A stretch of 23,107 bases of DNA from a virus, in the IMG/VR virus record IMGVR_UViG_3300005336_000054, positions 1-23,107 of that record; one strand, 5' to 3'. The notes below the pieces were generated by a model. It had not been told where the DNA came from. It worked only from the letters and a program-made list of their open reading frames with translations, and ran no database searches. Position 1 is the first letter of the stretch. Every line of letters begins with the position of its first letter. A program made the translations under genes and the position numbers. This document shows, one piece after another, positions 1,183-20,940 of this stretch.

Positions 1183-1432
1183 GGTCTCCGTTCATACATT
1201 CAACCCATTGATCTCTGGCTTTTCTTTCGCTCATTATCGCCACTCCAAAAGCGTAAAGAGCCGCTTCGTAATTAAGGTTTATCTCGACTTCTTGTTTGGA
1301 GTAAACGCGGTCGATGTCCACATGAAGTCCGGCATTTTTAAGAGCCTCGTATGCCGACAAAAACCTGGCTCTGGCAGCAGCGAGAACATCTCCGCAGTGT
1401 GTGTAAATCACTTCTGATTCTTCAAATGTCAT
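1151..1432 (-). CDS. Hypothetical phage protein, 93 aa
   Basis: This 93-residue acidic helical protein starts MTFEESEVIYTHCGDVL. Its start overlaps the end of the helicase gene by 4 nt in an ATGA arrangement, which indicates coupled translation. No transmembrane segment or known motif is visible. Because it directly follows the replication genes it may be an accessory replication or early protein, but that is inference from position alone. Confidence 0.6.
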   Translation of the reverse strand: MTFEESEVIYTHCGDVLAAARARFLSAYEALKNAGLHVDIDRVYSKQEVEINLNYEAALYAFGVAIMSERKARDQWVECMNGDHGNERQYANN

Positions 1433-2691
1433 AATTCAGCGTCAGTAAACTTACAGAATTTCCCGTCGAACTTCAGTTTTACGTTTCCAATTTCTCCATC
1501 TCGTTGCTTGGCGATTATCAACGTAGCGTCCTCGCCGCCGTCTTTGCGCGGGCGGTGCAGGAGTGCCACCGTGTCGGCGTCCCGCTCAATCTGGCCACTG
1601 TCCGCTAAGTCGGTGAGCCTCGGCATTCGCTCCTTGTCTTTTTCGCTTTCTCTGTTCAGTTGGGCAATCGTCAAGAAGGCTGCTTGGGTTTCCACGGCCA
1701 ACGCTTTTAAGACTCCGCTTACCTCTCCGACTTCGTATGTTCGCTTTTCGTGTTTCGTGCTTGGTTTTATTTTTTGCAGGTAATCAATCACCACAAGTTT
1801 TATTCCGTGCTTTCGGCAAAGTCGGCGCACAATCGAAGCGAGTCTATAAGAATCAAGACTAGCAATGCCTTCAACCACATAAAGCGGGCATGTCTTCATG
1901 CTGGCGTTGAAGTGGGTGAACAATTTGAACTGCTCTGGCTGGAACAGTCCGCTTCTCAAAACACCCATTGGCACACGGCAATGCGACGACAACATTCTCC
2001 GACACAACGCAACCGCACTCATTTCTAGAGTCACCACGATTGTTGGGATTTGATCCACTAAACAAACCTTCTCGACAATGTTCATTGCGATTGCACTCTT
2101 TCCGAGAGTCGGGCGAGCCGCAATTACGGTTTGTTCCCCAAGCTGCAACCCATCCGTTAGTCTGTCGAAATACTTGAACCCGGTTTCCAGGCCACTCTTT
2201 TTCCCGTTCAGATTACAACGCTGTTCAAGGTGAACCAGCAATGACTCCGCGCAGCGTTCCCCGTCATAAAGGTTTTGCGGTGCTTCATCTGATTCGGCCA
2301 GCGTGTTTTCAAGTTCGGCAATCACCTCGTCAATGTTCCCGTTCGCCACCATCGCCTTGTCCACGAACCTCAGCGCGGCTGCTATCACCGCCCGTTTTCG
2401 CCTGTGTTCAATCAGAATCGTTTTCCAGTAATCAAACGTGCTGCTAGCCGGGGACGCTGCTAGACATTGATTACACAGATCAATCGACGTGTGGCAGGTC
2501 TGAACAACGGACTGCACCGTGATAATTTTTCTCTCTGCGGCCATTACTCGAAGCGATTGAGCAAGTTCTCCCAGTTCCACCATGTAAAACCAGGACGGGT
2601 CCAGTTCTTCGGCGTATTCTTGATTGTCCAGGGCACAGCCAATTACGGCTCTTTCAGCATTTTCGTCATGTGGCGGGAGTTGGTCGGTCAT
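1429..2691 (-). CDS. dnaB: DnaB-type replicative DNA helicase
   Basis: This is a phage homologue of the hexameric helicase that unwinds DNA at the replication fork. The N-terminal domain opens with the DnaB-typical PPHDENAERAVIGCAL. The RecA-like domain begins near residue 165 (SGLETGF). It has a Walker A (ARPTLGKSA), a Walker B (LVVIDYLQ) about 105 residues later, and the late motif DLADSGQIERDADTV expected in DnaB. I place the start at the ATG at 2691, giving 420 aa, because it overlaps the upstream TGA as ATGA. A GTG at 2706 would add five residues but has no separate ribosome-binding site. The gene is coupled to the replication protein upstream. No helicase loader of AAA+ type is visible in the window. 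Confidence 0.93.
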   Translation of the reverse strand: MTDQLPPHDENAERAVIGCALDNQEYAEELDPSWFYMVELGELAQSLRVMAAERKIITVQSVVQTCHTSIDLCNQCLAASPASSTFDYWKTILIEHRRKRAVIAAALRFVDKAMVANGNIDEVIAELENTLAESDEAPQNLYDGERCAESLLVHLEQRCNLNGKKSGLETGFKYFDRLTDGLQLGEQTVIAARPTLGKSAIAMNIVEKVCLVDQIPTIVVTLEMSAVALCRRMLSSHCRVPMGVLRSGLFQPEQFKLFTHFNASMKTCPLYVVEGIASLDSYRLASIVRRLCRKHGIKLVVIDYLQKIKPSTKHEKRTYEVGEVSGVLKALAVETQAAFLTIAQLNRESEKDKERMPRLTDLADSGQIERDADTVALLHRPRKDGGEDATLIIAKQRDGEIGNVKLKFDGKFCKFTDAEL

Positions 2692-3407
2692 AAAGCGTTC
2701 ATCCACTCCTTTTCGTGTCCGACAGGGTAAAACCCGTCAATCCTGCCGTCTTTGTCCGGGACGCCTGGAGCTTTTGCCTTTTTAACGGTGCGCTCGTTTT
2801 CCGACCAAGTTTTCAGTTTTACCCGCCATTTCACCAACCGCCCGTGCTGGTTGATCCACGTTTGGTTGCCTTCGTGGTGCTCGAAAAACTTCTGCGCCAC
2901 ATGTTCGGGAATGCCACGGAGTGCGGCTTCTTCCTGAATTTCTTCTATGGTCGGAATGTTTGCTTCAGGTGTGTCCTGTTCTTTAATATGCTTCTGCTTC
3001 TGCATTGGCTTACAAAAGTTTACTTCTGCTAACGCCTGTTTACGCTGTTTACGGTAATCCCGCATGTAATTTCGCATGTAAACTTTACGCTCGTTTTCGT
3101 CTCTAATGTCCCTGTAATCAAGGTAATTGATGATTTTCCAACCCCAGTCTCGCTTCGGATCAATGCGTTGGATTCTTCGACCGTCATGTTTACGCGTTCT
3201 ACTTCTTTTGTCGGGTTGCTCAAGCTGTCTCAGCATTTCGGTAACTTTGTCGATTGGAATACGGGTTCTGCCAGCGATGGCTTCCTGGGTCATGTCAACC
3301 ACTCCGTCGCTCTCGGCTAGAACGAGTAGGTCCATAAAAAAGTGTCTTAGGGCGTAGTCGTTTGCGATGCTGCTATCAAATATCTGGGAGAAAACTTTGG
3401 CGTACAC
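2688..3407 (-). CDS. Winged-helix replication initiation / helicase-loading protein candidate
   Basis: This 239-residue basic protein precedes and is coupled to the DnaB-like helicase by an ATGA overlap. Residues about 10-75 look like a winged helix-turn-helix (a helical DYALRHFFMDLLVLAESDG, then TQEAIAGRTRIPIDKVTEML). A highly basic stretch (MRNYMRDYRKQRK) follows. The C-terminal part (FFEHHEGNQTWINQHGRLVKW) resembles the end of phage DnaD/O-like primosome proteins that recruit helicase. The start codon is GTG with no strong ribosome-binding site. The repeat-rich non-coding region directly upstream is a natural binding target. The family assignment is by pattern and gene context, not by a specific signature. 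Confidence 0.7.
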   Translation of the reverse strand: MYAKVFSQIFDSSIANDYALRHFFMDLLVLAESDGVVDMTQEAIAGRTRIPIDKVTEMLRQLEQPDKRSRTRKHDGRRIQRIDPKRDWGWKIINYLDYRDIRDENERKVYMRNYMRDYRKQRKQALAEVNFCKPMQKQKHIKEQDTPEANIPTIEEIQEEAALRGIPEHVAQKFFEHHEGNQTWINQHGRLVKWRVKLKTWSENERTVKKAKAPGVPDKDGRIDGFYPVGHEKEWMNAL

Positions 3408-3429
3408 GCTGAAAAATGGTTTGTGAAAC

Positions 3430-3532
3430 TTTTGTCGTGCCGTGGGAGGTTGTGACGCCAGACAGTGGATCGTTGAGGAACCGCTGATCCAACGGCACGA
3501 CGAAAATTTCCAATTTAGTCTGCGTCACAACC
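3430..3532. repeat. Interleaved inverted repeats upstream of the replication operon
   Basis: GTCGTGCCGT at 3434-3443 is matched by ACGGCACGAC at 3492-3501. GGTTGTGACGC at 3448-3458 is matched by GCGTCACAACC at 3522-3532. A third pair, TGGATC (3466-3471) and GATCCA (3486-3491), is nested inside the first. The first two pairs interleave, so they cannot all form simple hairpins together. They fit paired protein-binding sites, or a pseudoknot if transcribed. Confidence 0.75.
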
Positions 3533-3842
3533 GAAGATTCCCAAACTCCGCACCTCTACGCAAGAACTATTTTGGAAAAGTTATTAACAGGTTGTTCACA
3601 ATTTCGCCTGGATCGGATAAAGCTGTTTCTCGTGGAGAATCCAAATTTCCTTCATGGGATACACCTGCCATAGGTGAACCCAAGGTGATCGCTCATGAAT
3701 CCTGCGGAGGGAGGCGATTGAGAGTTTTAACATGTTCAACTGTTCGCTGAATTGAGCCAGAGCCTAGGCGGGATCACTGCACACTTAGGTTTATACCCGC
3801 CTTCTAGTGCCCTCTTTGGTAGTGCAGGACACAGGGCACGAC
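3434..3842. repeat. Iteron-like 8-mer GGCACGAC, three copies
   Basis: GGCACGAC occurs at 3494-3501 and 3835-3842 on the plus strand and at 3434-3441 on the minus strand. In each copy it is followed by a purine-rich run (AAAA, GAAA or AAGG). I noticed no copy elsewhere in the window. The clustering next to a replication gene fits initiator or repressor binding sites, but three copies is a small number. Confidence 0.5.
3581..3600 (+). promoter_or_regulatory. Two tandem DnaA-box-like 9-mers
   Basis: TTATTAACA (3581-3589) and TTGTTCACA (3592-3600) each differ from the consensus TTATNCACA at one position, and they are separated by two bases. The surrounding bases are A/T-rich. Two near-matches side by side in the region thought to be the origin suggest host DnaA involvement. 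Single-mismatch boxes are common by chance, so support is moderate. Confidence 0.35.
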
Positions 3843-3860
3843 AAGGATTAGCTCAATTCA
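3748..3860. ncRNA. Candidate structured RNA or cruciform with three-way junction
   Basis: A perfect 10-bp closing stem pairs TGAATTGAGC (3748-3757) with GCTCAATTCA (3851-3860). Inside it are two 7-bp stems: AGGCGGG (3766-3772) with CCCGCCT (3796-3802), and GTGCCCT (3807-3813) with AGGGCAC (3833-3839). The two loops carry complementary hexamers, CTGCAC (3777-3782) and GTGCAG (3822-3827), which could form a kissing interaction. An 8-bp direct repeat AACTGTTC (3738-3745 and 3864-3871) brackets the element. The strand of transcription is unknown. A miniature mobile element with terminal inverted repeats is an alternative. Confidence 0.5.
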
Positions 3861-3876
3861 AAGAACTGTTCAAAAA

Positions 3877-3929
3877 TGGCCGCTGGCGTGAAACGCGTCT
3901 CAGACAAAACGCAAAAACACCAGCGGCCA
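3877..3929. repeat. Inverted repeat, 10-bp stem
   Basis: TGGCCGCTGG at 3877-3886 pairs with CCAGCGGCCA at 3920-3929 across a loop of 33 nt. It lies between the putative structured RNA and the end of the large virion gene. No T-run follows on either strand, so it is not a standard intrinsic terminator. It may be another arm of the origin or RNA region. Confidence 0.6.
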
Positions 3930-3960
3930 CCAACCGCACACTGCGACAACGAACACGGGC

Positions 3961-3990
3961 AGATTAAGGCCCGGGACTGAGGCGTGTCAA
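3961..3990 (-). promoter_or_regulatory. Weak candidate leftward promoter
   Basis: On the minus strand a perfect TTGACA (complement of 3985-3990) is followed after 18 nt by TAATCT (3961-3966), a poor -10 match. If real, it would drive a transcript through the structured region into the replication operon, giving a long leader. The weak -10 keeps confidence low. Confidence 0.2.
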
Positions 3991-3996
3991 TGGGAT

Positions 3997-6900
3997 TTAT
4001 TTAACATGCTCAAAAGCATTCAGGATTTGCTGTCTCGTTTTGAGGGCGTGTTCGTAAAGTTCCTTGTTGTAACCTGAGAGCGATTTGGCGAATTGTTCGT
4101 CCTGCGCTTTGCTCCCGGTGAATGGGTGATTGACAGATTCCTTGAATCCTTTGGCGATTTTATCTGCGGTCATAGTCTTTTTCAGTTCTAGATATTCGCC
4201 TTTCGCCCTGTCCAGATCACCGTCCTCTAAGGCGTATCGCAACTGCTGATATTTGCTGATCGGATAACTGCCCTTGTCTTTAGGAAGTTTCTGTTTGTCC
4301 TTCCACTCACCGGCGAGTTTGTACGTCTCGCTGATTGGACTGTAGCGGGAGATTCTTAATCCGAGAGAACCGGCCAACTGTTGAATCGGCGTGGTTGGGT
4401 TGTTCCTGCTGCTCTCGGTAAGTTCGCGCAATCCTGGCATTGATCTGAGCGTGATCGGAATGTAACCGGCCAGCAGTTCCGTGAACGTCTCCAACGGCGT
4501 AACTTTTTCGCCCCGGTAATTGAGTTCAGTCAACGCTTGTATTCCGCCTTTAACGATCAAAGGATTAACGCGGCCGTAAATGAACTGGCGCGTGTCCTTC
4601 AGCAAACTGTAAATGTCTTCCGGCACGCTCCGCATGGCGTATCTTCGGCCTTTGTAAACGAGTTCAAACGGGTGTTTCGGGTCATACGGCACACCAAGCA
4701 TGTTGGACAGGATAAACGCCGTGCCAGCCTGGGCTGCTGCCAGAATCGCCACGGCTTTCAATTGTTCGTGACCGACTTTTGAAGTGAGACCTTTCACCGC
4801 CTGACCTGCAAATCGTGTTCTGGCCTCAAGAAAATCCGGTGCAAGTGCGCCTAATTGAATCAGGTGTTGAATCGTAGGATTGCGGTCAAGCAAAGCGTAA
4901 TTTAGGTGGCCATAAGCAGCATTGGCCTGTTCTGCTGACGTGATCTTTACGTCTGCGAGTGTCATTTCGCCAGAAGCGAGTTCGTCAGCATACAGCTTTG
5001 TGTTGCGCTTTAACATGGCCTCGTAGGTCTTGAATTTGAGTCCTGGAATGTATTGGTGAAACAGGTAATCCTGATACCCGTCAATCACGTCAGCCAACGC
5101 TTCCCCGGCCTTCGGAATCTTCCTGATCCCACGCGACAGCAAAGAAGTTTTGGCACCAACCCCTTCCAGATAAACCCGTGAACTTGCCCTGTCCGGCAGC
5201 AACATTAGACCGTGATTGGCGGCGTCGAATTGAGCCGGATTACGCAGGTCAATCTTGGGTATTCCAAAGAACGGATTGACCATGTGGCCGATTCCGTGAG
5301 TGCCTTCCTGAACCTGGTGGAATGGCGCAAGAAAACCGAACATCTCACGTTTCATGGCCGCCTGACCAACGTCAATACCACGAACAATTGCGCGTGGAAT
5401 CTGAGCCATGCCACCAACCGGATCGTGATACCACTGGCGCAATGCCGATTGTCCAAGCATAGCGTTTACCCGACGATATGCGTCCGGGTGTAAGGCGAGG
5501 TCGGCTTTAACAAATACCGGGTTGCCATTCGTATCTTTGCTTTGCCAAATCCAGTCATGCAACGCCGGTTGATTCTCCATTGTCTTGTAATCTGCTGTGT
5601 CCTCACCCCGGAGCGCACGCGGTTGAACCAACACGGCTTTACCTTCGTCGCCTTCGACAACCTTGACGTGACCTCTTTGCGCCACAAGCGGTCTGCCGTC
5701 GGCTGCCGTCTCATTGGCCAGGTCACGGACAAATTGTCTATCCGCAATCACCTTGTTCATTTCGTGGATATACGCTGGCAGAAGTTTCCCGATTGCGAGT
5801 GTCTTTGGTTTGAATCCGGCTTGATCGCCTTCAAAGAACGTGGCAAATGTTCTGGCTTTGGAGAATCGAAAGCGTTGCTGCAACATGCCTGTGCCGAATC
5901 CCGTCCCCGGCCTTTTCACGTACCAAACGTGAGGAACGTAGTTTTCGCGGTGCGAACCGAGCACGTCGAATGTATTCCCGCGAGTTTCCAAGGTTGAGAA
6001 TGCCGCAATTGCTTTGTTGGCCACGGCGACTTCCTTGGGCGTGAGGGATTGCGCGTCACGAGCCACGTCCCTCATCCACTTCTGTTTGGCGTTAGTTTCC
6101 CACTGTTTGAGAACAGCCACGTCTCCACCGGCTTCCCTCCAAATACTGATTGCATTCTGTCTGCGTTCGGTTGGAACGTCGCGCTTGATTTCTTTTTGTG
6201 CTCGTCGCGCTTCGTCCATTGATTTCTGGAGCTTGCCACTGTGCTGTGCTGTCACCTTGTCGAGTGGGGACATTTTGCGATTGGCAAATTTGGGGATTGG
6301 GATACCAGCACCCAACTCCATTCCTGTTTCAGTGAATGGTTTTTCCATTGTTGCGCTAACCCAGTCGTCTATGGCCAATTGTTGCTTTGCTTCTAATGCC
6401 TCTTTTTCAGCCTTTGCCTTTTCTTGATTGGCTTTAAGCTTGGCGGCTCGTTCAACGTCAATTCCTTTTTCTCCAGCGAGAGCAAAATCTTCGGTTTGAG
6501 TGCTGGAAATCAAGTCGCCTTGTTTCTCGCCGGGAAGCAGTTTCGGTTTGGTGACGGCCTCTCCAAAATCGTTTTCAACATGCTCTCTAAGTTTTTCCAA
6601 TGCCGCCGCACGTCCAGTAGGAGTGTCAATCGAATCAGGGTCAATTCCCGCTTCGATGGCGGCATTACGCCTGGCAATCTTCAATTCCTTACTTTTTAGA
6701 ATTCGTGCTTGAATACTGGCTGTTCCTTGTTGACCTCCACCGCCTGTTTCGGCGTAGAGCGATTCTGGATTTCTCGCCCAACCGCGTTCCGCCGCATGTT
6801 CCATTACCATCGCGTCAAATTCCTGTGAGGCTTTTTGTGGGCTGATCGACTTGCTTGGTTTTGTAACTACTTCAGATACCGCTTGGCCTTCCGTATTGAC

Positions 6901-7755
6901 GGTGGGCGCAGTTTCTTTTTCCGTTGCGGCAGCGATTTCAGGTTTGGCGTTTTGTGCGCCCACTCCTTGCAATTCCACAACCCCGCCTTCCCCCGCGCCT
7001 TGAGCGCGAAGCATTTCCTCTGCTGACTTTTGCTGACGAAGGGCATTTTCCGTTCCTCCTTGTTTAGCGACTTCCGCCGCTGTTATTGGTGCGACTGTGT
7101 TTAAGCGGTCAATCAACTCTGCGCGTTGACCGGCTTCGGCTGGCGTTTCAATTGGCGTGATTGCTTCGAGCTTGGCTTTGACACCTTTAACAGTGTGCGC
7201 TCCGGTCAACCCGGCAAACACTCCCGTTCCGGCCATCTCGGTGATTGCTCCGGCCTTTTGTCCCGGACTCATTTCCGACCAGTTCTTGTATGTGTCCTGA
7301 ACTTTCTGGCCAAGACTATGAAGCAAGTCCGCCGTGAACAACGCGGCCACGGCTGTCGGTGCAACTGTTCCTGCCGCCAATGCTTCAACGCCAAGTGCGG
7401 ACGTGAAGAACTGTGGAATTCCAACGCCAAGATTGACGACCTCCTTGCCAATTGCCGTAAGTGGCGAATCCTCTTTCTTGACTTCAAACGGTGTTGGAAT
7501 CGGGCTTGGGTGAGTCAGCGTTTCGCCAGCGGCCTCAATCGGCTCAACCAATGTCTCGGCTAAACTTGCAACCGGAACGCGCCCACCTCCCTTGGTTGTG
7601 GACTCGCCTAAAACTCTTGGGATTGTGAAACGAGATTCTTCAACTGGCTTGGCTTTGGCTGGTTCTATGGGTTCGATAACGTCATAACCTTTGGCTTCAG
7701 GCTCGATTATGTCGTAACCAGATTTCGTTTCCGGCTCTAGGAGGTCATAAGCCAC
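3997..7755 (-). CDS. Very large internal virion / DNA-ejection protein candidate, 1252 aa
   Basis: This is the last gene of the leftward virion operon, 3 nt after the 318-residue gene, with a GTG start. The N-terminus carries three short repeats of the form YD-[LIV]-[LI]-EP (residues 3-29). A hydrophobic, Ala/Gly-rich segment spans about residues 105-148, a charged coiled-coil-like stretch lies near 430-470, and another hydrophobic segment near 1000-1018. Size, position after the tail genes and membrane-active segments resemble the huge internal or ejection proteins of short-tailed phages and the large polyvalent proteins of phage genomes. I see no lytic transglycosylase or peptidase motif with confidence, so an enzymatic role is not claimed. 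Confidence 0.65.
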   Translation of the reverse strand: MAYDLLEPETKSGYDIIEPEAKGYDVIEPIEPAKAKPVEESRFTIPRVLGESTTKGGGRVPVASLAETLVEPIEAAGETLTHPSPIPTPFEVKKEDSPLTAIGKEVVNLGVGIPQFFTSALGVEALAAGTVAPTAVAALFTADLLHSLGQKVQDTYKNWSEMSPGQKAGAITEMAGTGVFAGLTGAHTVKGVKAKLEAITPIETPAEAGQRAELIDRLNTVAPITAAEVAKQGGTENALRQQKSAEEMLRAQGAGEGGVVELQGVGAQNAKPEIAAATEKETAPTVNTEGQAVSEVVTKPSKSISPQKASQEFDAMVMEHAAERGWARNPESLYAETGGGGQQGTASIQARILKSKELKIARRNAAIEAGIDPDSIDTPTGRAAALEKLREHVENDFGEAVTKPKLLPGEKQGDLISSTQTEDFALAGEKGIDVERAAKLKANQEKAKAEKEALEAKQQLAIDDWVSATMEKPFTETGMELGAGIPIPKFANRKMSPLDKVTAQHSGKLQKSMDEARRAQKEIKRDVPTERRQNAISIWREAGGDVAVLKQWETNAKQKWMRDVARDAQSLTPKEVAVANKAIAAFSTLETRGNTFDVLGSHRENYVPHVWYVKRPGTGFGTGMLQQRFRFSKARTFATFFEGDQAGFKPKTLAIGKLLPAYIHEMNKVIADRQFVRDLANETAADGRPLVAQRGHVKVVEGDEGKAVLVQPRALRGEDTADYKTMENQPALHDWIWQSKDTNGNPVFVKADLALHPDAYRRVNAMLGQSALRQWYHDPVGGMAQIPRAIVRGIDVGQAAMKREMFGFLAPFHQVQEGTHGIGHMVNPFFGIPKIDLRNPAQFDAANHGLMLLPDRASSRVYLEGVGAKTSLLSRGIRKIPKAGEALADVIDGYQDYLFHQYIPGLKFKTYEAMLKRNTKLYADELASGEMTLADVKITSAEQANAAYGHLNYALLDRNPTIQHLIQLGALAPDFLEARTRFAGQAVKGLTSKVGHEQLKAVAILAAAQAGTAFILSNMLGVPYDPKHPFELVYKGRRYAMRSVPEDIYSLLKDTRQFIYGRVNPLIVKGGIQALTELNYRGEKVTPLETFTELLAGYIPITLRSMPGLRELTESSRNNPTTPIQQLAGSLGLRISRYSPISETYKLAGEWKDKQKLPKDKGSYPISKYQQLRYALEDGDLDRAKGEYLELKKTMTADKIAKGFKESVNHPFTGSKAQDEQFAKSLSGYNKELYEHALKTRQQILNAFEHVK

Positions 7756-7758
7756 AAC

Positions 7759-8715
7759 TCAACGGAGTTTTACTTTGCCAACGCCTTCGAGGTAAATAAC
7801 GTCGCCAGCTTTCGCACCAGCAGTTCTGGCTGCTTCTTCAGATTGATACTTGGCGGTTTCCTGTCCAGTCTCAGCCGCTGCCTTTCCACTCGGCACGGTT
7901 CGTTTGATCGTAATTTCTCCGTGACCTTTCACGGCTTTGACCTCCGGTGTTGCGCCAATTGAAGTTCCGAAATATCCAGGTTTTGCCGGAGCAGCTTCGA
8001 CGGCCTCGACCGCTGGAATCTTTTCCGTTTCAGTCTGTAACCCCTGAGCCGCTGCTGAAGGATTCTCAAACACCATTTTGCCAGTGGCTGGGTTGAACAC
8101 CTTTCCGCCCGGCGGCACGTTCAGAATCTTGTTCTCGGCTTTGGCTTTTTCTTCAGCGAGTTTCTTGGCTTCATTCTCTGCCTTTACACGTTCATTGATA
8201 ATCCCCAACGCCTTGAACTGATCGCCATTAGGAACTTTCGCCGGGTCTTGTTCCATTTCCAATACGGCCGCCTGATACGTTGGCGGGACAGCAGCCAAAT
8301 CTTTCCAGAACGTGTTGGCCAGCGATTGTTTCACGCGACCTTCGTATGTCTTGGTTGCGGCTTCGCTTGCCGCCAATTGCACGCGGGTCATGTTGGAGAA
8401 CACGCTGGATAGATTCTTGACTAACGGCGCCGTGAGTGGAGACAGGGCAGCCCCCGGATTCTTGACCAGGAATCTGGCCATGCCTTCCTCGTCCTCAACA
8501 CCAAATGCCCGCATTTGATCGACCAACTCCTTGCTCGCCTCCATTTGCGCCCGCATTTGGTTCTCACGAAATTGCAACTGCTCGATCCTAGACTGCCGCT
8601 GCAACTCGACACTCTCCCGCGCCGTGCGTGCATTGTAACCGCTAATGGCCGCCGCCGCCGCGCTGCTGTTGCCGCGCTCAACCCAAGGTGGGGGCATGTT
8701 CTCGAAAAGACTCAT
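7759..8715 (-). CDS. Internal virion-type protein with coiled coil, 318 aa
   Basis: This 318-residue protein lies between the 256-residue virion gene and the 1252-residue protein. The first 80 residues are Ala-rich and then form a charged coiled coil (RQSRIEQLQFRENQMRAQME). A second helical Lys/Glu/Ala segment occurs near 180-200. The last 30 residues (GAKAGDVIYLEGVGKVKLR) look like a small beta-rich cap. This architecture is usual for internal core or ejection proteins of podoviruses. Its ATG overlaps the stop of the HNH-AP2 gene as ATGA and no independent ribosome-binding site is visible, so its translation now seems to depend on the inserted endonuclease gene. Confidence 0.6.
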   Translation of the reverse strand: MSLFENMPPPWVERGNSSAAAAAISGYNARTARESVELQRQSRIEQLQFRENQMRAQMEASKELVDQMRAFGVEDEEGMARFLVKNPGAALSPLTAPLVKNLSSVFSNMTRVQLAASEAATKTYEGRVKQSLANTFWKDLAAVPPTYQAAVLEMEQDPAKVPNGDQFKALGIINERVKAENEAKKLAEEKAKAENKILNVPPGGKVFNPATGKMVFENPSAAAQGLQTETEKIPAVEAVEAAPAKPGYFGTSIGATPEVKAVKGHGEITIKRTVPSGKAAAETGQETAKYQSEEAARTAGAKAGDVIYLEGVGKVKLR

Positions 8716-18159: not shown

Positions 18160-20940
18160 ATGCCAAAAGAAGCCTATGGGCGCCAGTGGGAAGATCATTT
18201 GAATGATTTCGAGATCGACGCCATTGTCTTTAATAAGATGTCGCCTGAAAAGGTGGACAAGGCACAAGTCTTCAAGCGCATTGCCAGACGATTCTGGCCC
18301 ACCAACGCCAAGCCTCCCAAAATGCCGTTTATCTGGCACCCGTGGGCGGACGACATGCTCCATGAGGCGTGCAAGACAAACTACCTCGCATTAAATGGGG
18401 GGGCTTGTGTTGCTGGAAACACGCGAATATTAAATCCGATAACGGGAGAAGAACCCACTATTGAGGAACTGTTTGAATCTCGGATTGCGCCGATGGTGAT
18501 GACCTTGCACGGCCCTGCTCAGGCAAGCGTTCCGTTCATTAAGGGGACGGATGATTTATACGAAGTCGTGATGGAGAATGGCAAACGGTTTACCTCGACC
18601 GGAGAACATCGCGTTCTAACGCCAACCACTTTTTCTGCCGTTTCAACTCTGCTGCCCGGCTCACTCCTTTTCTTATACGAGCCAGTCCGTCCTCAGTCCA
18701 CTTCGGACATTTCCCTTTCAGTTCATGCGCGAGATGTTCTGAGTTCTCAGAGAACAGTTGGAGATTTTCAGGAAGGTTGTCAGTTTTCACGCGATTACGA
18801 TGGTGGACGACTTCTTCCGGGCGAAGATAACGGCCAATCATCTTTTCCATCACAAGCCGATGCTCAAGAATGTAAGGCGTGTTCTTGCGACGGTTGGGGT
18901 GGTTTGGACAGTACACGATTTTATAGCCGTCTTTGTCAATATGCACGCCGCCATTCCACTGACCTGACTTCTCTCCAGGAATATTCACGGGGAAATTCCT
19001 TGTTTCGCCTTCACGCCGGAGAAAATATTTCACGCGCACCCCTGTTGTTCCAACAGCGCGGGCGATTTCCTCTAGGTACGCACCCTCAGAGTTCATTTTC
19101 AAAACTAAATCTCTGTTCCTCATGCACGCGCCATTTCTCGGAACGACTATCCCAATCTTTCGGCCAACCACACCACGATCTTTCAAGCGGGACTGAACCA
19201 GTCTATGCGACAACCCGATTTCCCCAGCTATTTCCTTGGGGCGAAGCCCGGACTTCCAGAGTCGCACCATTTCGTCAACCATCTGCAACGTCTTTTTTCT
19301 CAGAGCCATGTTCAGACTTTACGGTATCGCAACAGAAGGTGCAAGGAATAAGTCGTATCAAACGAGGAAAGTTTTACGACCTGTCTGTTCCGGGGATTGA
19401 GCACTACTTTGCTGAAGGAGCAATCCACCATAATTCAAGCGGCAAAACTGAATTTGAAGCGGTGTGGGCGATTATCAATTGGGCAGTTGACCCGTCCAAT
19501 ACTTGTGTGCTCGTAACGTCAACTGGCATTAAGGAAGCACGCCAGCGTATTTGGGGATCAATTGTAAAATATTTCAACGCCGTTCCTGGACTGCCCGGCA
19601 AACTGCTGGATTCAATCGCCATGATCCGCACCGATGACGGCACGGGCAGACGTTACGATTCAAAGTGCGGTATTCACGTTGTCGCCGGTGATAAGTCCAA
19701 GGAAAAGGAAAACATTCAGAAGCTAATCGGTATTCACGTTCCCCGCGTATTCCTGATTGCGGACGAGTTGCCGGAACTGTCCCCGGCGCTGTACGAAGCC
19801 GCCATGACCAACCTTGCCACGGCACCAAAGTTTCAAATGATTGGGAGCGGAAACTTCAAATCAATTTACGATTCGTTCGGGACATTCTGCGAGCCAAAGG
19901 AAGGTTGGTTGAGCGTGGACGCAGACACAGAACGGTGGGAAACAAAAATGGGCGTGTGCCTCCACTTCAATGGTGAGAAAAGTCCCAACGTATTACTTGG
20001 TGAAGATAAATGGCCAATTTACGGTTGCAAAAATCTCGAACAACACCGGAAGCAACCCGGCCAGCACACAGCCGGTTACTGGCGCATGTGTATTTCCATG
20101 CCGAGCCAGGACGCGGAGGAAAACACGATTTATCCGGCTTCGGCGTTTATCAAAGGGCACGCACACGATAAGCCGACTTGGATTGAGACTCCGATTCCGG
20201 TTGCGTCGTTAGACCCAAGTTTTGTTTCCGGCGGCGACAGGGCTGTTGCCTGCTTTGGATTGTACGGCAAAGAGAAAAACGGCAAGATGGTGTTGGGATT
20301 TACAAAGGTGACGGAAATTAAAGAAGACCGACGAAATGATCGAGAAAGCAAAAGCGTTCAAATCGCAAAAAGATACAGGGCAATGTGTGAAGAAGAACAC
20401 GTTGAACCTCAGAATGCGGCTTACGATGGTTCCGGTGGCGGCATTGTTTTTGGTGCTCTCCTTTCCGAACTTTGGTCTCCCAAACTTCTCTCAGTTCAAT
20501 TTGGCGGCAGTGCGTCTGACTTGCTTGCGAACATGGGAGACAAAAGAACCGGGAAACAATCCTACGTCAATCGCGTTACCGAACTTTGGTTCACAGGTTT
20601 GGAATTTGTTCAATCGTCGCAAATTCGAGGGCTCCCGGGAAGCACGGCGAAAGAATTGCAAGCGCGACGGTACGAAACTTCTAAGCAGGGCGAATTTTTG
20701 AAAACCAAGATTGAAACGAAAGCCGAAATGAAAGTTCGCACCAACGGAAAAAGTCCAGACGAGGGCGATAGCGCAATGATATTGGTCGAGCTTTGCAGGA
20801 GAAGGTTTGGATTTACACCGGGAGGAATTGCTGGCGCCAGAACAAAGGTAAAGGACGTTTGGAAACAGAAGGTCTTGAGAACAAATGGCATTTTTGACAG
20901 CGACTCGCTTTATCAGCCAGAAGAAATGGTTGCGGTTTAA
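18160..20940 (+). CDS. terL: Terminase large subunit interrupted by an intein
   Basis: This is a 926-residue precursor that gives a terminase of 583 residues once the 343-residue intein is removed. TerL is the packaging motor ATPase and DNA-cutting nuclease. The intein splits the ATPase P-loop: residues before it read LALNGGA and those after read SSGKT, giving GGASSGKT after splicing. The Walker B is FLIADE at 531-536. The RNase H-like nuclease has D685 (ASLDPSF), D756 (AYDGSG) and D867 or D870 (SPDEGDSA). The C-terminal extein is complete. A purine-rich AAGGA lies just before the ATG with a short spacer. It heads a rightward operon with the portal. Without splicing the P-loop would be destroyed. 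Confidence 0.95.
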   Translation: MPKEAYGRQWEDHLNDFEIDAIVFNKMSPEKVDKAQVFKRIARRFWPTNAKPPKMPFIWHPWADDMLHEACKTNYLALNGGACVAGNTRILNPITGEEPTIEELFESRIAPMVMTLHGPAQASVPFIKGTDDLYEVVMENGKRFTSTGEHRVLTPTTFSAVSTLLPGSLLFLYEPVRPQSTSDISLSVHARDVLSSQRTVGDFQEGCQFSRDYDGGRLLPGEDNGQSSFPSQADAQECKACSCDGWGGLDSTRFYSRLCQYARRHSTDLTSLQEYSRGNSLFRLHAGENISRAPLLFQQRGRFPLGTHPQSSFSKLNLCSSCTRHFSERLSQSFGQPHHDLSSGTEPVYATTRFPQLFPWGEARTSRVAPFRQPSATSFFSEPCSDFTVSQQKVQGISRIKRGKFYDLSVPGIEHYFAEGAIHHNSSGKTEFEAVWAIINWAVDPSNTCVLVTSTGIKEARQRIWGSIVKYFNAVPGLPGKLLDSIAMIRTDDGTGRRYDSKCGIHVVAGDKSKEKENIQKLIGIHVPRVFLIADELPELSPALYEAAMTNLATAPKFQMIGSGNFKSIYDSFGTFCEPKEGWLSVDADTERWETKMGVCLHFNGEKSPNVLLGEDKWPIYGCKNLEQHRKQPGQHTAGYWRMCISMPSQDAEENTIYPASAFIKGHAHDKPTWIETPIPVASLDPSFVSGGDRAVACFGLYGKEKNGKMVLGFTKVTEIKEDRRNDRESKSVQIAKRYRAMCEEEHVEPQNAAYDGSGGGIVFGALLSELWSPKLLSVQFGGSASDLLANMGDKRTGKQSYVNRVTELWFTGLEFVQSSQIRGLPGSTAKELQARRYETSKQGEFLKTKIETKAEMKVRTNGKSPDEGDSAMILVELCRRRFGFTPGGIAGARTKVKDVWKQKVLRTNGIFDSDSLYQPEEMVAV
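18590..19309 (-). CDS. HNH homing endonuclease encoded antisense inside the intein
   Basis: This 239-residue protein is on the strand opposite terL and lies wholly within the intein. The N-terminus contains two helix-turn-helix-like segments (KSGLRPKEIAGEIGLS at 19-34 and EGAYLEEIARAVGTTG at 75-90). The HNH domain follows at about 115-187: GQWNGGVHIDKDGYKIVY, then EHRLVMEKMIGRYLRPEEVV and HHRNRVKTDNLPENLQLF. H150, H169 or H170, and N178 or N182 are likely active-site residues. A weak promoter-like pair (TTGCAC, 17 nt, TAAAGT at 19316-19344) would give a nearly leaderless message. Its last 20 or so codons overlap intein blocks B and N4. It probably cuts intein-free terL alleles. Confidence 0.92.
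   Translation of the reverse strand: MALRKKTLQMVDEMVRLWKSGLRPKEIAGEIGLSHRLVQSRLKDRGVVGRKIGIVVPRNGACMRNRDLVLKMNSEGAYLEEIARAVGTTGVRVKYFLRREGETRNFPVNIPGEKSGQWNGGVHIDKDGYKIVYCPNHPNRRKNTPYILEHRLVMEKMIGRYLRPEEVVHHRNRVKTDNLPENLQLFSENSEHLAHELKGKCPKWTEDGLARIRKGVSRAAELKRQKKWLALERDVLRSR
19316..19344 (-). promoter_or_regulatory. Weak promoter-like pair upstream of the antisense HNH gene
   Basis: TTGCAC (complement of 19339-19344) and TAAAGT (complement of 19316-19321) are separated by 17 nt, each matching the sigma70 consensus at four of six positions. The predicted start would fall at the ATG at 19309. It lies inside intein coding sequence, so its bases are constrained by protein, and the match could be chance. 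Confidence 0.2.

Follow-up and report, generated by a model that had tools for sequence, protein, structure and literature searches.

A candidate structured RNA with complementary loops between the late and replication genes of a phage

The question raised by this locus is whether the non-coding gap that precedes its replication genes encodes a structured RNA and, if so, what such an RNA might do there. The DNA analyzed here (the window) is an IMG/VR record of 23,107 bases, classed as linear, often a fragment. From ~18.1 kb leftwards its genes lie on the minus strand, and comprise tail-fibre-like and unknown genes followed by those of a 1252-aa protein (from its position presumably a late virion gene), an O-like initiator with a GTG start codon, and a DnaB helicase. 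The plus strand encodes, at 18160-20940 and where the large terminase would be expected, a protein of 926 aa with a sub-threshold match to the intein splicing domain. Cultured phages yielded no relatives of the 1252-aa, O-like or intein-bearing protein.

An initial annotation had described, within the gap between the 1252-aa and O-like genes, a three-way junction composed of perfect pairs and possibly locked by a kissing contact. A base-by-base script check found this fold in place, with Watson-Crick pairs throughout. As listed in Table 1, a closing stem surrounds two inner stems of equal length, the loops of which carry complementary hexamers, and the closing stem is prolonged outward by an imperfect extension.

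Table 1. Coordinates of the junction element, its surroundings in the window, and the members of two further element classes in other loci (L numbers).
Feature	Locus	Position	Strand	Basis or remark
Three-way junction with complementary loops	window	3748-3860	minus (inferred)	sequence and folding
Closing stem, 10 bp	window	3748-3757/3851-3860		TGAATTGAGC/GCTCAATTCA
First inner stem, 7 bp	window	3766-3772/3796-3802		AGGCGGG/CCCGCCT
Second inner stem, 7 bp	window	3807-3813/3833-3839		GTGCCCT/AGGGCAC
Complementary loop hexamers	window	3777-3827		CTGCAC 3777-3782, GTGCAG 3822-3827; possible kissing contact
Imperfect extension of closing stem	window	3735-3873		arms 3735-3757/3851-3873, 23 nt, 83% complementary
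8-bp direct repeat	window	3738-3745 and 3864-3871		AACTGTTC
Non-coding gap, 589 nt	window	3408-3996	minus	between 1252-aa and O-like genes
1252-aa protein	window	3997-7755	minus	function unassigned; related proteins in just two or three contigs of uncultured phages
O-like/DnaD-like replication initiation protein, 239 aa	window	2688-3407	minus	phrog_345 6e-5, phrog_10469 7e-4; relatives found
DnaB-like replicative helicase, 425 aa	window	1429-2706	minus
Terminator-like hairpin of late operon	window	3872-3929	minus	arms 3929-3917/3889-3877, then TTTTT 3876-3872
45-codon ORF	window	3596-3733	minus	ATG 1-2 nt past outer stem; may be spurious
H-type pseudoknot	window	3434-3532	minus	interleaved; S1 3532-3522/3458-3448, S2 3501-3492/3443-3434
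Pseudoknot	L002	5885-5975
Pseudoknot	L006	8467-8591
Pseudoknot	L012	3884-3978
Pseudoknot	L031	3822-3914
Pseudoknot	L069	3667-3776
Pseudoknot	L089	5496-5586
Pseudoknot	L089	6989-7076
Pseudoknot	L090	4661-4745
Pseudoknot	L091	6268-6356
Pseudoknot	L094	2937-3034
R1 member	L004	3068-3211	minus
R1 member	L010	5298-5459	plus
R1 member	L022	2258-2399	plus
R1 member	L038	4290-4438	plus
R1 member	L114	9427-9638	minus
R1 member	L150	5288-5403	minus
R1 member	L151	460-563	minus
R1 member	L183	2997-3154	minus
R1 member	L184	1994-2225	minus
R1 member	L219	2392-2527	plus
R1 member	L220	2378-2527	plus
R1 member	L221	75-96	plus	partial

The layout is rare in randomized sequence. A descriptor that called for a closing stem of at least 10 pairs, inner stems of at least 7 and a loop match of at least 6 was satisfied in 6 of 3742 Markov-shuffled windows, while the loop-loop match by itself is weak, being present in 4.8% of shuffled loops. 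Among ~1.7 Mb of real phage sequence from other, partly overlapping loci, the descriptor was satisfied at two distinct and unrelated places, one in GC-rich coding sequence (L086) and the other in L092; the post hoc chance rate of the layout is, roughly, a few percent per 23 kb.

Folding calculations gave z-scores of the minimum free energy (MFE) of -3.32 for the plus strand of the element and -3.63 for the minus strand. The minus-strand MFE structure holds the complete three-way junction; in that of the plus strand the closing and GTGCCCT stems persist, but the first arm is rearranged. Being a pseudoknot, the loop contact is beyond the scoring of the folding program. For the gap as a whole the minus strand reached z -4.94, with 100 of 100 shuffles less stable, and the plus strand z -3.20. 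In a scan across the window, the strongest values fell in this same gap, at 3841-4000 on the minus strand (-6.0) and at 3391-3550 (-4.3), and exceeded nearly all of the rest. A second strongly negative value (-5.2) lies at 8461-8620 on the plus strand, close to the junction of two genes.

These results bear on whether inverted repeats that arose from other constraints, such as the terminator or remnants, simply happen to form a neat junction. The element was picked out of 23 kb, its layout recurs at the two unrelated places noted above, and it shows no conservation; even so, with the scarcity of the layout among shuffled windows, z-scores below -3 on both strands and a non-coding position, coincidence has little probability. 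As a feature of the sequence the junction is real, and a chance origin of its structure is unlikely.

Inverted repeats in DNA are expected to have similar stability on both strands, and the strand of the element is indicated by weak hints: the direction of the flanking genes, the MFE structure that coincides with the junction, and the closing stem, which on a minus-strand RNA gains one G-U and one A-U pair and so extends to 12 bp. The G-U pair exists on the minus strand only. Read along that strand, the order is a terminator-like hairpin, the junction, a 45-codon ORF, a pseudoknot and the O-like gene. The hairpin is long and GC-rich and abuts the outer stem of the junction; since the extended stem begins within the TTTTT run, a promoter would not fit between them, and no sigma-70-like promoter beyond chance level was found near the element. 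Read as protein, the flanking small ORFs (45 and 34 codons) have no homologues.

Separate from the junction, the pseudoknot stops ~26 bases short of the O-like gene's GTG codon and carries GAAATTT in its first connecting loop. It belongs to a class with the order S1, loop, S2, hairpin-bearing loop, S1', short link, S2', for which 11 instances at a pairing score of at least 52 were counted in real sequence, against one in equal-size Markov copies. Members of the class immediately precede phage genes, those for replication among them. The GAAATTT loop is common to the pseudoknots of the window, L002 and L012, all just upstream of O-like genes; in several others an ATG (TTTTATG) follows after 4-8 nt. 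Two homologous pseudoknot-like stretches (CCGCAGGAGAGC...GTTCTTGGGAGAAC) were also observed in apparent coding sequence of different phage contigs (L124, 13592-13684, plus; L125, 6448-6536, minus). Other phages with a related O-like protein bear pseudoknots at the same position ahead of the initiator, which implies that folded leaders are usual there.

Together, these observations raise the possibility that the element acts in cis as a folded RNA domain, read from the minus strand where the late operon gives way to the replication operon. This reading, the most economical in mechanism, is tentatively preferred. The gap would be transcribed on the minus strand, and RNA that reads through the terminator region, or starts inside it, would fold into the junction. 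The 7-bp arms, equal in length, would lie side by side and bring the loops together for pairing, in the manner of other three-way junctions with loop-loop contacts. The resulting compact 5' domain might protect or process the leader of the O-DnaB mRNA, or bind a regulator. The rarity of the layout in shuffles, the minus-strand z of the element, the lower z of the gap on the minus than on the plus strand, and the minus-strand orientation of both neighboring genes all argue for such a domain.

No sequence homologue of the element was found by nhmmer and BLASTN over all fetched loci, nor by BLAST against 50 whole related contigs, which had been collected via the O-like protein, the helicase and the 1252-aa protein. 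Cultured phages and plasmids gave no match, the loop-pair pattern gave none in IMG/VR, and searches of the literature did not turn up a report of such an element. With Rfam 15, no family reached its gathering score anywhere in the window, and the only matches were at chance level (E 2.7 and 3). The view that the element is not a tRNA was borne out by ARAGORN, which found no tRNA or tmRNA gene.

Two further loci are informative as to the distribution of the layout. L006 is the closest relative that carries the late gene, its version of the 1252-aa protein reaching 62% identity over the best segment; the equivalent gap there, of 231 nt, holds a pseudoknot only, and no three-way junction of the kind found in the window. 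In L092, a stretch of 111 nt (2695-2805) has a near-identical layout with a 10-bp stem, two 7-bp arms and a 7-nt loop match, and lies on the gene-sense strand 1.4 kb upstream of that phage's own replication genes (O-like and DnaB). This resemblance counts in favor of the cis-acting RNA domain. The L092 stretch was, however, not counted as proof, since it falls within the 3'-terminal part of an ORF that has no known relatives, and has none itself.

The case for a cis-acting RNA domain is weakened on several sides: the element has no homologue and hence offers no covariation, the terminator abuts it and no promoter was found, its stability is similar on both strands, the L006 gap lacks the junction, and the L092 look-alike falls within an ORF. 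A more far-reaching version, somewhat unlikely, is that the element represents a new class of phage RNA, in which two equal 7-bp arms are locked by 6-bp loop-loop pairing into a compact three-way junction that would act as a processing or regulatory domain between the virion and replication transcription units, with a layout possibly shared with L092. Of the original suggestion of a new phage RNA, the phage intergenic location, the lack of an Rfam family and a structure above chance have stood; they are not accompanied by any homologue.

When the closing-stem pattern, TGAATTGAGC...GCTCAATTCA, was searched in IMG/VR and in 84,980 genomes, the matches in IMG/VR were two virus contigs, L150 and L151. 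Both belong to a separate phage RNA family, here designated R1, which was reached via this shared stem. R1 consists of a variable closing stem, a hairpin GCGTG-GAAAGCAGA-CACGC, a variable arm and a hairpin GCGGG-AGTAGCG-CCCGC; the closing stem often ends in TTGAGC, and changes with compensation while both hairpins stay. Covariation in R1 is strong: in a structure-free alignment of six sequences it amounts to 0.347, compared with 0.124 in shuffles and with none of 500 shuffles reaching it, and in 12 model-fitted sequences (one of them partial), an alignment that leans to the model, to 0.402 against 0.124.

R1 occurs in both cultured and uncultured phages, with several copies near terminase, portal or capsid genes. 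It lies between two tRNA genes in Ochrobactrum phage POI1126 and between the terminase and the next large gene in Synechococcus phage Ssp-JY40; the Pseudomonas phages Orimi01 and phiAH14a carry it too, and in Yong-M3-232 a partial match sits directly ahead of the portal gene. Rfam gave no match at the R1 element in the three members scanned. A hairpin like the second of R1 (GGGAGTAGCGTCCC) is found in L096 (421-436) and L100 (3053-3068), where a pseudoknot of the class above follows it immediately on the 3' side; this adjacency hints that the two classes may be linked.

The window element resembles R1 in its phage location, its long closing stem and its inner GC-rich hairpins, and the exact closing stem TGAATTGAGC, with TTGAGC/GCTCAA at its inner end, is common to the window, L150 and L151. 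Yet that stem was the very probe that led to R1, so the match is not independent, and it is confined to the stem. The hairpin GCGTG-GAAAGCRGA-CACGC was not found directly after the closing stem of the window, nor was a hairpin with the loop (A/G)GTAGCG found directly before its 3' arm; GGTAGTG does occur in one loop of the element, but not in such a hairpin. Both conserved hairpin loops are missing, and the window scored at background, with 5.6 bits (E 1.8) against 20-144 bits for members. The element was therefore rejected as a member, and that it is a divergent one is very unlikely.

Among the genomes, the closing-stem pattern matched one place in Photobacterium; its other matches, ~30 in number, were copies of a 113-bp repeat, all from a single uncultured Deferribacteres genome. 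This repeat (L153-L182) forms a family of at least 40 copies of ~113 bp with terminal inverted repeats ACCTGAATTGAGCGATT. As a relative of the window element it was discarded: its profile scores the window interior no higher than shuffles, and BLAST of the element against the whole Deferribacteres genome gave only chance matches of 14-20 nt. A single global alignment with the repeat favored the plus strand (2/300 shuffles), which the profile test did not confirm.

The Deferribacteres family bears on the proposal of a miniature inverted-repeat transposable element, in which the 8-bp repeat would be the target duplication at its flanks. The 10-bp terminal inverted repeats, the 8-bp direct repeat and the sharing of the same 10-bp end with a multicopy family fit such an origin. 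The direct repeat is indeed present around the element, but it is not flush with the ends and belongs to the extended inverted repeat. No second copy exists in the window, the related contigs, phages or plasmids, and the one repeat family that shares the stem has an unrelated interior. The proposal is accordingly unsupported and highly improbable.

The adjoining O-like initiator and DnaB genes invite a reading at the level of DNA, namely a cruciform or protein-binding inverted repeat, for instance part of a replication origin or an operator beside the O-like gene. The comparable structure on both strands would agree with this, as would the short TGTTCA-type repeats and the near-palindrome TTTAACATGTTCAA within the gap. 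An origin structure had been among the initial suggestions, but the direct repeats at 3380-4020 are two-copy only and form no iteron array, and GC skew has no clear extreme at the gap. Nor would an operator need two further independent stems with matched loops, and a DNA element is unlikely.

A stand-alone small phage RNA from either strand, whose loops would act in trans or join copies by pairing of the hexamers between molecules, would suit the compact, self-contained fold and its complementary loops, and phage gaps do hold structured RNAs that have no Rfam entry. Given that no promoter, no homologue and no sequence similarity to any known RNA was found, this is distinctly unlikely. The rivals of the cis-acting RNA domain thus rank, in falling order, as DNA element, small RNA, coincidence, R1 membership and mobile element.

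Among known systems, the purine riboswitch aptamer is a three-way junction closed by loop-loop pairing between loops of 7 nt, and the window element is like it in having a closing stem and two equal 7-bp arms with complementary loops. Its loops, however, are of 19 and 23 nt, and it has neither an Rfam match nor a purine gene downstream. The packaging RNA of phi29 type (Rfam Phage_pRNA) is likewise a three-way junction of ~110-120 nt with complementary loops; in contrast, the window lacks a match to that family, has lambda-like O and DnaB genes, and carries the element away from the presumed terminase. GOLLD and ROOL, the structures of which are available (PMC12286853), are comparable as large folded RNAs in phage non-coding regions. 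Unlike these, the window has no Rfam match, and no such unit was recognized in its 589-nt gap.

As it stands, the junction element is an orphan, for which no known relative was found. More widely, the non-coding stretches of phages near replication and head genes contain folded elements outside Rfam, of which R1 is one case. If transcribed and folded as predicted, the element would be a small natural three-way junction with a loop-loop lock, placed at a switch point of phage expression.
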